Virus record (IMG/VR): IMGVR_UViG_3300011113_000047
Span: 1 to 31,228 of that record
Length of the DNA stretch: 31,228 bases
Source: a virus
Direction: 5' to 3' (one strand)
Position numbers and translations under genes: made by a program. The notes beneath the pieces were generated by a model. That model saw nothing but the letters and a program-made list of their open reading frames with translations. It was not told the DNA's origin and did not search any database. How positions within the stretch are numbered: the stretch's first letter is position 1; the number at the start of each line of letters is the position of its first letter. Of the stretch, positions 28,940 to 31,228 are shown piece by piece.

Positions 28940-29085
28940 TGCTTACGGCAATAGCAGATTTTGCATGGGTTGCGTGTTGGGTTGTGCTTTACATGTCCCT
29001 GCTTGCATCTTTACTGGCATTCCTGTTCTTTAGTGTTTACGCATTGTTCTGCTGGATTAAAAAGGAGATCGACAATGGAAAATAA
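28936..29085 (+). CDS. Small hydrophobic membrane protein (49 aa)
   Basis: From ATG 28936: residues 3-40 are almost wholly hydrophobic (WVACWVVLYMSLLASLLAF and on to ALFCW), enough for one long or two short membrane segments, and the C-terminus is IKKEIDNGK. The gene is ATGA-coupled upstream, and its last codons contain the AAGGAG ribosome site of the oxygenase gene that starts inside it. A role in membrane perturbation, or as an anti-holin-like protein, would be speculative. Confidence 0.6.
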   Translation: MMLTAIADFAWVACWVVLYMSLLASLLAFLFFSVYALFCWIKKEIDNGK

Positions 29086-29641
29086 ATATGTTCAGAAGTT
29101 GATGGGCGCAGCGGTTGAACGATATGTTCTTACACCAGCGCAATGCACGATGCTGCGTGATGACGCACAGATCATTGGTATGAAACGTGCAACTGTGATG
29201 AATAAGGATGGCACAGTCAAAAGATCATTTGCCAGAACATGCTCGTCATGCTGGGTTCCAAACAGCCAGCATCATAAATGGATCTACAACATTATGAATG
29301 AGCTTACCAGAGCTATTAACGAGGAGAACTGGAAGTTTGATATTACAGGAGTGCAGCAGTTACAGATTCTAAAGTACAACGCATTCCAGCGGTTTATGTG
29401 GCACTATGACCTGTACAACGGAAGCGATAGGAAACTTACTGCTGTGGTCAACCTTTCCGATCCAACCGAGTATTTGGGAGGCGGATTACAGATCAAGGCC
29501 GACATTGACAACTCACAATTTATCCGAGAGCAGGGAGCCGGATGCTGGTTCCCATCATACTTGGAGCATCGCGCCCGTGCTCCTATATGGGGTACCAGGT
29601 GGGTGCTGGTTGGTTGGTTTACAGGTCCAGCATGGCGATGA
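29075..29641 (+). CDS. 2-oxoglutarate/Fe(II)-dependent oxygenase (prolyl hydroxylase-like)
   Basis: 188 aa from ATG 29075, which has AAGGAG at good distance; an earlier in-frame start at 28961 is rejected because it lacks one. The iron triad is H110 and D112 (MWHYD) and H165 (LEHRARA), and R175 (GTRWVLVGW) binds 2-oxoglutarate. VNLSDPTEYLGGGLQI between them is typical of the prolyl-4-hydroxylase-like family found in phages. Substrates of these phage enzymes are usually unknown; protein hydroxylation is most likely, base hydroxylation possible. It overlaps the membrane-protein gene and is ATGA-coupled downstream. Confidence 0.85.
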   Translation: MENKYVQKLMGAAVERYVLTPAQCTMLRDDAQIIGMKRATVMNKDGTVKRSFARTCSSCWVPNSQHHKWIYNIMNELTRAINEENWKFDITGVQQLQILKYNAFQRFMWHYDLYNGSDRKLTAVVNLSDPTEYLGGGLQIKADIDNSQFIREQGAGCWFPSYLEHRARAPIWGTRWVLVGWFTGPAWR

Positions 29642-30046: not shown

Positions 30047-30225
30047 TGGAAGTAGAGGCAAAGAACCGCCTCAAGTGGGCGTGCGATATCCTTCTCTCTG
30101 CCAGGGAAAAACTGGCAGTTGAGAGGGATCGCGCGAACCACGGACATGCGATTGACATTATTCAGATCATTGCTCTTGTCGATGCAGCGGCCTTGGTTTG
30201 CAAGGAGATTGCTGGAAGTGAATGA
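30046..30225 (+). CDS. Hypothetical 59-aa helical protein
   Basis: MEVEAKNRLKWACDILLSAR, then VERDRANHGHAIDIIQIIALVDAAALVCKEIAG, two or three amphipathic helices. The start overlaps the previous stop (TGATG). Its stop overlaps the ATG at 30222 of the alternative frame as ATGA, and the GTG start of the methyltransferase lies seven bases inside. The gene therefore also carries the AAGGAG (30202-30207) that serves what follows. No family is recognised. Confidence 0.62.
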   Translation: MEVEAKNRLKWACDILLSAREKLAVERDRANHGHAIDIIQIIALVDAAALVCKEIAGSE

Positions 30226-31123
30226 AAAAACACACCTCGACTTATTTAGCGGGATCGGAGGATTTGCCTTGGCAGCAAAGTGGAATGGATATAGAACCGT
30301 TGGCTTCTGTGACAACGAACCATACGCCCAAGCCGTCATCAAAAAGCACTGGCCGGACGTGCCGATCCACAAAGACATCCGCGAAGTACGAGGCGAGCTA
30401 TACGCAGGAGTCACTCTTCTCACGGGAGGATTTCCCTGCCAACCATTCTCCAATGCTGGGAAGCAAAGAGGCAAGAACGATGACCGCTATCTCTGGCCAG
30501 AAATGCTTAGGGTCATACGCGAGGCAAGGCCAACTTGGATCATTGGTGAGAATGTTGCTGGGATCGTCAACTTGGCACTCGACCAAGTGCATACTGACTT
30601 GGAAAGTGAAGGTTACGAAGTCGAATCGATCATTATTCCAGCTTGCGGTGTCGATGCCCCGCACAGGAGAAACAGAGTCTGGATTGTCGGACGTAACAAA
30701 AACAACAATGTGGCCGACTCCGAGGGCTTGCGACTTGGAGGGTGGAGTGAGCAAGGCAACCAATATGGGGGGGGGATGGTACAGGGAGAATCAAAAGGGA
30801 GAAAGGTGGGGAGTCAAATTGAAGGATGCTGTTCATTCTGCGGAGAGATTGTGGCCAACTCCGAGCAGTCGAGACGGCAAGGGTGGGTACAGGGGGGGGC
30901 GAATGAGGAACGGAAAGATTTCAATGGACACACTAGATGTTGCTGTACAGCACGAGGAGAATCAGGGGAAGCAGTCTGGCCAATTGAACCCAGAGTGGGT
31001 CGCCTGGCTCATGGGATACCCAACCGAGTGGCTAAATTGCGTGGACTCGGAAATGCCATCGTCCCGCAAGTCGCGGCGGAAATCATCAGATGCATCAACA
31101 AAGTAATGGAGGATAACAAATGA
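30218..31123 (+). CDS. dcm: DNA C5-cytosine methyltransferase
   Basis: 301 aa from GTG 30218, with AAGGAG ten bases upstream. Motif I DLFSGIGGF (residues 8-16), motif IV GGFPCQPFS with catalytic C74, motif VI GENVAG (110-115), motif VIII PHRRNRVWIVG (148-158) and motif X GLGNAIVPQVA (276-286) are all intact. The region between VIII and X is Gly/Arg/Cys-rich, with VADSEG and VANSEQ repeats, where the target-recognition domain should be. The enzyme transfers a methyl group from SAM to cytosine C5, usually protecting phage DNA. Nearly its whole length is overlapped by another open frame. Its stop overlaps the next start (ATGA). Confidence 0.92.
   Translation: MNEKTHLDLFSGIGGFALAAKWNGYRTVGFCDNEPYAQAVIKKHWPDVPIHKDIREVRGELYAGVTLLTGGFPCQPFSNAGKQRGKNDDRYLWPEMLRVIREARPTWIIGENVAGIVNLALDQVHTDLESEGYEVESIIIPACGVDAPHRRNRVWIVGRNKNNNVADSEGLRLGGWSEQGNQYGGGMVQGESKGRKVGSQIEGCCSFCGEIVANSEQSRRQGWVQGGANEERKDFNGHTRCCCTARGESGEAVWPIEPRVGRLAHGIPNRVAKLRGLGNAIVPQVAAEIIRCINKVMEDNK
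30222..31106 (+). CDS. Overlapping second frame inside the methyltransferase gene (294 aa)
   Basis: This frame runs 885 bases without a stop inside the methyltransferase gene, from ATG 30222 (ATGA with the upstream stop). It has recognisable features: DFPANHSPMLGSKEARTMT (residues 70-88), TWHSTKCILTWKVKVTKSNR near 117-136, two WPTP-x3-D units (164-171 and 211-218) and QLNPEWVAWLMGYPTEWLNC (254-273). I recall free-standing phage proteins with this order of motifs next to cytosine methyltransferase genes, which suggests a genuine product, but database entries could themselves be out-of-frame readings. Function unknown; a methyltransferase partner is possible. Confidence 0.5.
   Translation: MKKHTSTYLAGSEDLPWQQSGMDIEPLASVTTNHTPKPSSKSTGRTCRSTKTSAKYEASYTQESLFSREDFPANHSPMLGSKEARTMTAISGQKCLGSYARQGQLGSLVRMLLGSSTWHSTKCILTWKVKVTKSNRSLFQLAVSMPRTGETESGLSDVTKTTMWPTPRACDLEGGVSKATNMGGGWYRENQKGERWGVKLKDAVHSAERLWPTPSSRDGKGGYRGGRMRNGKISMDTLDVAVQHEENQGKQSGQLNPEWVAWLMGYPTEWLNCVDSEMPSSRKSRRKSSDASTK
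30767..30775 (+). repeat. G9 homopolymer in the overlap region
   Basis: Nine consecutive G lie in the middle of the methyltransferase gene and encode Gly-Gly-Gly in both overlapping frames. Such a tract is prone to polymerase slippage and sequencing error, and one base gained or lost would switch the reading frame between the two overlapping proteins. Confidence 0.85.
30892..30899 (+). repeat. G8 homopolymer in the overlap region
   Basis: Eight consecutive G, 116 bases after the end of the G9 tract. It encodes Gly-Gly in both frames. With the G9 tract it brackets a segment that could be read in either frame if slippage occurred at both. Confidence 0.85.
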
Positions 31124-31228
31124 AACTATGGACTAATCAAACAAACTCAATCCACAAGGTGGATGACAACCTACTTCATGTTCGTAATACTTACGTTCTT
31201 CCGGATGAATTGACCGGAGGGATATGGA
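31120..31228 (+). CDS. Hypothetical protein, 3' end cut by window
   Basis: ATG 31120 overlaps the methyltransferase stop (ATGA) and has GGAGG at 31108-31112. Thirty-six residues are visible, opening MKLWTNQTNSIHKVDDNLLH and continuing VRNTYVLPDELTGGIW. Too short to classify; no motif is recognised. It shows that the rightward operon continues beyond the window. Confidence 0.6.
   Translation, partial: MKLWTNQTNSIHKVDDNLLHVRNTYVLPDELTGGIW

Follow-up and report, generated by a model that had tools for sequence, protein, structure and literature searches.

A viral DNA record of 31,228 bases, taken here over its whole length and called the window, carries at its right end a gene for a C5-cytosine DNA methyltransferase that is overlapped by a second open reading frame on the same strand. 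The question is whether this second frame is a gene and, if so, what its product contributes to an enzyme already encoded by the first. Ordinary m5C methyltransferases consist of one chain, in which motifs I-VIII, the recognition domain, motif IX and motif X follow each other in this order. For the phage family considered here, neither a description of dual coding nor a function for it was found in the literature searched.

The locus and its neighborhood

The window also carries genes for a large terminase subunit, a portal protein and a tail fiber; a second C5-methyltransferase was not found elsewhere in the 31,228-base record. The frame with the catalytic motifs, referred to as alpha (30218..31123; all features given here are on the plus strand), starts with GTG, stops with TGA and encodes 301 amino acids. 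The frame at +1 relative to alpha, referred to as beta (30222..31106), starts with ATG and encodes 294 amino acids; to it we assign below the target-recognition modules and motif IX. A Shine-Dalgarno-like AAGGAG read from the sequence (30202..30207) lies 10 nt 5′ of the alpha GTG and 14 nt 5′ of the beta ATG. The latter is located 4 nt inside alpha, in an ATGA at 30222 that combines the start of beta with the stop (30223-30225) of the upstream gene, which encodes 60 amino acids; a further ATGA joint is present at 31120. Both frames had been placed at these coordinates in the original prediction, which had also described the two joints and quoted the motifs of beta; all of these were recovered from the sequence.

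Upstream of the methyltransferase there is a gene for a 2OG-Fe(II) oxygenase (PF13640; window 28961-29641). A gene starting downstream (window 31120-31228) has a full-length relative (L012:3881-4987) that matches glycosyltransferase family 9 (PF01075).

The alpha frame

Alpha matches phrog_363 over almost its full length (E = 1.5e-77) and PF00145 over residues 7-165 only (E = 7e-42). Motif I (DLFSGIGGFAL; 30239..30271) is almost invariant in alignment A1, from which, together with the sequence, motif IV with the catalytic cysteine in PCQ (GGFPCQPFSNAG; 30425..30460), motif VI (ENVAGI; 30548..30565) and motif VIII (APHRRNRVWIV; 30656..30688) were also recognized. Motif X (GNAIVPQVAAEI; 31049..31084) is conserved and was predicted by AlphaFold2 to lie in a helix (residues 283-299; pLDDT about 85). 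AlphaFold2 reached a pLDDT of about 85-95 over much of residues 1-164, and with Foldseek the catalytic domain was matched to M.HhaI (E = 1.8e-12) and M.HaeIII (for both, E about 2e-12 over about 170 columns). Motifs I, IV (PCQ), VI (ENV), VIII and X and the M.HhaI-like catalytic fold identify alpha as a C5-cytosine DNA methyltransferase. Its start is conserved, with ATG, GTG or TTG at the same place in 52 of the 53 loci of the window's clade.

The alpha frame showed neither a target-recognition domain nor motif IX between motifs VIII and X. Residues 165-278 were predicted with a pLDDT below 50 (mostly 31-43) and with almost no secondary structure; this linker (residues 165-277; 30710..31048) is under no alpha-specific constraint as far as motif IX. 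The original prediction had assigned all core motifs to this frame; only I, IV, VI, VIII and X are recognizable there, and the PF00145 match ends at residue 165. Alpha is not a single-chain enzyme of the Dcm type, because its frame evolves neutrally between VIII and IX, is unstructured between VIII and X and lacks the recognition domain and motif IX, the latter being found in the +1 frame. The functions absent from alpha appear to sit in beta.

The beta frame

Beta matches phrog_1008 (annotated as "DNA methyltransferase") with its residues 42-279 (E = 5.5e-35). No Pfam or NCBIfam model matches it, nor does any PDB chain credibly, and the AlphaFold2 model of beta alone (pLDDT 47, pTM 0.21) was too poor for a structure search. 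In alignment A2 a conserved core (STWHSTKCILTWKVKVTKSNRSLFQLAVSMPRTGETESGL; 30567..30686) lies opposite alpha motifs VI-VIII and is constrained in both frames. The same alignment of 39 beta sequences contains the segment LNPEWVAWLMGYPTEWLN (30984..31037), in which P257, M264, G265 and P267 are invariant. Its alignment with motif IX of M.HhaI, which we take to be KLHPRECARVMGYPDSY, is weak (E = 0.015, probability 3%). Because of this weak direct match, the identity of the segment rests on the invariant residues, on its position and on its continuation into motif X in relatives (L115, L222 and the phages Commander and Samora, in which a motif IX-like segment precedes motif X in one chain); on these grounds it qualifies as putative motif IX. 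The best reading of beta is that it carries recognition modules and motif IX (LNPEWVAWLMGYP). The original prediction had missed the identity of beta, which belongs to a PHROG family already labeled as a DNA methyltransferase and appears to hold the recognition region and motif IX that complement alpha.

Openness and recurrence of the overlap

One objection is that beta codes for no protein and only shadows the methyltransferase frame, its motifs mirroring the conservation of alpha. Part of beta indeed lies opposite the conserved alpha motifs IV, VI and VIII, and the absence of beta from Pfam and NCBIfam would fit such a frame. The openness of beta was compared with four chance models of alpha (synonymous permutation, two synonymous redraws with different codon usages, and codon permutation; 5,000 shuffles each). 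Beta remained open over 294 codons in none of the 5,000 shuffles under any model, which excludes chance openness; the longest open run in the beta register averaged 83-105 codons and never exceeded 288. The other same-strand frame of alpha is unremarkable (56 codons).

Relatives were collected with beta queries, and 254 loci were classified by profiles of the alpha N part, alpha motif X, the beta core and the region of beta motif IX. Both alpha parts are located in one open reading frame and both beta parts in another at +1 in 228 of the 254. In 212 of 218 intact loci the observed length of beta was reached by no more than 5 of 100 permutations (median 0); the control frame in these 218 loci is unremarkable (median 15/30). 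A tblastn search with beta found 205 phage records at E ≤ 0.01 and nine plasmids. Scans of sequence collections yielded 137 and at least 522 confirmed encoding stretches in viral contigs (two overlapping scans) and at least 432 in bacterial genomes. The overlap of alpha and beta thus recurs across hundreds of phage and bacterial genomes. A sequencing artefact was rejected because the arrangement is found in hundreds of assemblies.

Both frames have been annotated by depositors in Paenibacillus phages (e.g., Tadhana), in coliphage K1ind2 and in Xanthomonas phage PhiXhv-18. In K1ind2 the annotations are "C-specific methylase" and "Mte8-like protein." The latter, found in K1 coliphages, and phrog_1008 represent the same beta family, known by annotation only.

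Selection on the two frames

In the register of the overlap, codon position 1 of alpha is position 3 of beta, alpha position 2 is beta position 1 and alpha position 3 is beta position 2. In 24 independent pairs from the clade, alpha position 3 changes fastest up to motif VIII (0.118 vs. 0.030 and 0.017), and between VIII and IX the fastest is alpha position 1, which is beta position 3 (0.161 vs. 0.052 and 0.056). The dN/dS values, which are uncorrected, overlap-aware pairwise counts with bootstrapping over pairs, are for alpha 0.06-0.14 up to VIII, 1.03 [0.81-1.29] between VIII and IX and 0.14 at motif X, and for beta 0.66, 0.51 and 0.33 along the gene and then 0.30 [0.15-0.50] between VIII and IX, where the control +2 frame gives 2.28. 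A further 69 pairs, taken from 165 loci of other viruses, phages, plasmids and bacteria, replicated the result (VIII-IX: alpha 1.26, beta 0.57, control 1.73).

Selection changes frame at motif VIII, acting on alpha before it and on beta between VIII and IX. Since alpha is neutral and beta constrained in the latter region, the alpha frame is a passive passenger there. The values of 0.66 and 0.51 belong to beta residues 1-120 and indicate a mild constraint; the N-terminal extension of beta in the window's clade may therefore contribute little. Both alpha and beta are under selection, and beta is a real gene. The frame-specific pattern of substitution, with a constraint between VIII and IX that falls on beta and not on alpha, rules out the shadow frame; the presence of beta where stops close alpha and the enrichment of start signals, both described below, also speak against it, and we give this explanation almost no credence.

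The original prediction of a dual-coding gene, in which the second frame would be the main target of selection from motif VIII to motif X, is supported by these values for VIII-IX. It had proposed to tell a gene from a shadow by the openness of beta in homologues, by a constraint beyond that of alpha and by occurrence apart from alpha. The first was observed in the classified loci and the second in both sets of pairs; as to the third, in the four relatives mentioned above beta occurs without alpha over the recognition region.

Start signals of beta and relatives with an interrupted alpha frame

The sequence RTGAATGA is found at the starts in 51 of the 53 loci of the clade, with the beta ATG 4 nt after the alpha start. 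In most other lineages beta opens about 55-60 codons into alpha, often right after a stop. An example of an embedded start signal for beta is taAAGGAGttagctaATG, within the alpha codons for DVKELANDP. A Shine-Dalgarno sequence followed by ATG or GTG precedes the beta core in 57 of 154 loci, as compared to 5.1 (sd 2.2) expected from synonymous permutation, an enrichment of about 11-fold. This argues for beta being translated as a separate protein; beta is presumably expressed in the phage of the window, too.

Alternatively, the two frames could yield a single protein by programmed frameshifting, with the ribosome reading alpha to motif VIII, the beta frame for recognition and motif IX, and alpha again for motif X, so that beta would not be made alone. 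Selection does run along such a path, and a few loci have G tracts close to the switch. Two shifts would be required, however, most intact loci are without such tracts, and beta is open upstream of the switch with its own Shine-Dalgarno sequence and start. We regard frameshifting as improbable and retain beta as a protein of its own.

In L115, in L222 (Brevibacillus borstelensis), in Mycobacterium phage Commander (L089; gp77/76) and in Streptomyces phage Samora (L091; gp34/35) alpha stops after motif VIII. From the recognition region onward these four loci have 3-11 stops in the alpha frame and none in the beta frame, which passes through PTP modules and the motif IX-like segment and then through motif X. 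The profile of the overlapped betas matches that of Commander gp76 and Samora gp35 in hhalign (95.9%, E = 5e-9), and the Commander and Samora proteins belong to phrog_1008 (Commander gp76 at 4.4e-79).

These loci also bear on a further explanation, namely that beta is a separate protein of other function, such as an inhibitor or an anti-restriction protein, which merely overlaps alpha. The literature searched yielded no experiment that connects the beta of this family with methylation, as would be expected if the functions were unrelated. Yet among the classified loci beta was never found apart from an alpha N part, it has a motif IX-like segment and continues into motif X in four loci, and alpha is without exactly the recognition region and motif IX. 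An unrelated function of beta is, in our judgment, quite unlikely.

Other interruptions were seen. In L107, L240 and L205, read by eye, the alpha frame is interrupted by a stop in the VIII-X interval or immediately ahead of X and beta is intact, as if alpha could do without its link to motif X; classification alone placed L127 and L221 in the same group. In L090 (Mycobacterium phage Llama, gp74/gp75) the alpha-type gene is split into two overlapping open reading frames inside the catalytic domain, and beta is in a further frame. In L226 (Paenibacillus macquariensis) both frames are broken, motif IX is joined to the alpha frame and motif X is out of frame; this bacterial copy is probably decayed.

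Putative recognition modules and simple repeats

In the window's clade, beta before motif IX divides at WPTP-like sites (WPTPxxxD) into units of about 40 residues. Clustering of these modules gave 25 classes and 24 architectures with 1-4 units per gene, counts that are approximate because the units were split by a fixed rule and clustered at a cut-off of 60% identity. The window has the architecture E-D, with module 1 of class E (WPTPRACD...; 30708..30848) and module 2 of class D (WPTPSSRD...; 30849..30983), the latter class recurring in other combinations. Class A was found in the contexts B-A-D, B-A-C, A-D, K-A-D, A-M and A-N, and class C in E-C, B-C and B-A-C. Several exchangeable recognition modules, as in the multispecific enzymes, are thus present; the TL consensus published for target-recognition domains, P[STCA]PT[ILV] (PMC2413257), is strictly matched by only 18 of the 486 beta modules. 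From their position, their variability and the precedent of the multispecific enzymes, we infer that the modules set the sequence specificity.

Module 1 contains a G9 tract (30767..30775), at which indels swap frames in the relatives L011, L018 and L021, and in module 2 a G8 tract was read from the sequence (30892..30899). L058, L062 and L065 have (GA)n repeats of 36, 18 and 32 nt, respectively, just past motif VIII. Differences in repeat length join either the alpha N part to the recognition part of beta or the N part of beta to motif X, and the six shifted contigs include both directions. These swaps could be phase variation or assembly error. Scans with DNA patterns for the G tract and for the (GA)n repeat revealed no new contigs. 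In L103 (2120-2350) an extra cassette of recognition region and motif IX (RLWPTPTTRDYKGG...LNPDWVEWLMGYP) stands on its own past the point where alpha ends; judged by eye, it resembles module 2 of the window.

It is conceivable, although we put this forward as a rather doubtful proposal, that the locus represents a widespread family of split methyltransferases with an array of exchangeable recognition modules that the catalytic gene encodes in its second frame and, in some lineages, with repeats as a phase switch of modification. Each imported module would then have to stay open in both frames, and the junction repeats (G9-10, (GA)n) would alter the joined parts in some lineages.

A probable methyltransferase made of two proteins

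Taken together, the locus very probably encodes one m5C methyltransferase split into two proteins from two frames of the same DNA. Alpha would provide motifs I-VIII, for AdoMet binding and catalysis, and motif X at its C terminus, bridged by an unstructured linker of roughly 115 residues. Beta, starting at its own ATG and coupled via ATGA to the stop of the upstream gene, would provide motif IX and one or more WPTPxxxD modules, each about 40 residues long. The two proteins presumably assemble into the active enzyme, in which alpha would flip and methylate the cytosine and beta would read the site; the target sequence is probably chosen by beta. Most likely, the methylation would protect the phage DNA from restriction by the host. 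As candidate histories, the simplest are that two frameshifts flanking the recognition region disrupted a gene for a single chain, or that motif X changed frame in a gene pair split like that of M.AquI.

Comparison with known systems

In M.EcoHK31I the small polypeptide is encoded inside the gene of the large one, in another frame. According to PMC3404938, in this m5C methyltransferase (recognition sequence YGGCCR) motifs I-VIII and X are on the large polypeptide and motif IX is on the small one (citing Lee, Kam and Shaw, 1995), and the predicted recognition domain is on the large polypeptide. By described motif architecture, the window is alike in having I-VIII and X on alpha and IX on beta. 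It differs in that selection on the region between VIII and IX, which consists of modules about 40 residues long, acts in the second frame, so that the recognition domain is not on the large polypeptide, and in that beta begins 4 nt after alpha and spans nearly all of it.

M.AquI is a two-subunit m5C methyltransferase split near the variable region into I-VIII and IX-X, the recognition sequence and IX being on the C-terminal subunit (PMC3404938). Commander, Samora, L115 and L222, with IX and X together on beta, resemble M.AquI; in the window, by contrast, motif X is on alpha and the genes overlap almost completely.

In multispecific m5C methyltransferases of phages (SPbeta type) a single chain holds, between VIII and IX, several recognition modules that can be exchanged. 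For these enzymes domain swapping is described in PMC2413257 with reference to Trautner et al. The window shares the exchangeable modules between VIII and IX and differs in that these are in an overprinted frame and rarely have the strict TL motif. A two-polypeptide m5C methyltransferase is thus of a kind already known; new are the breadth of its occurrence, the placement of the modules in the overprinted frame and the mosaic way in which they are reshuffled, with 24 architectures in a single clade.

Long overlaps on the same strand with demonstrated selection in both frames have rarely been documented, and the hundreds of loci in which selection changes frame within the gene make the origin and persistence of such overlaps testable. 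The findings also suggest that many "dcm" annotations in phages and bacteria cover only half an enzyme, so that a prediction of specificity based on the VIII-X interval of the annotated frame would use the wrong frame.
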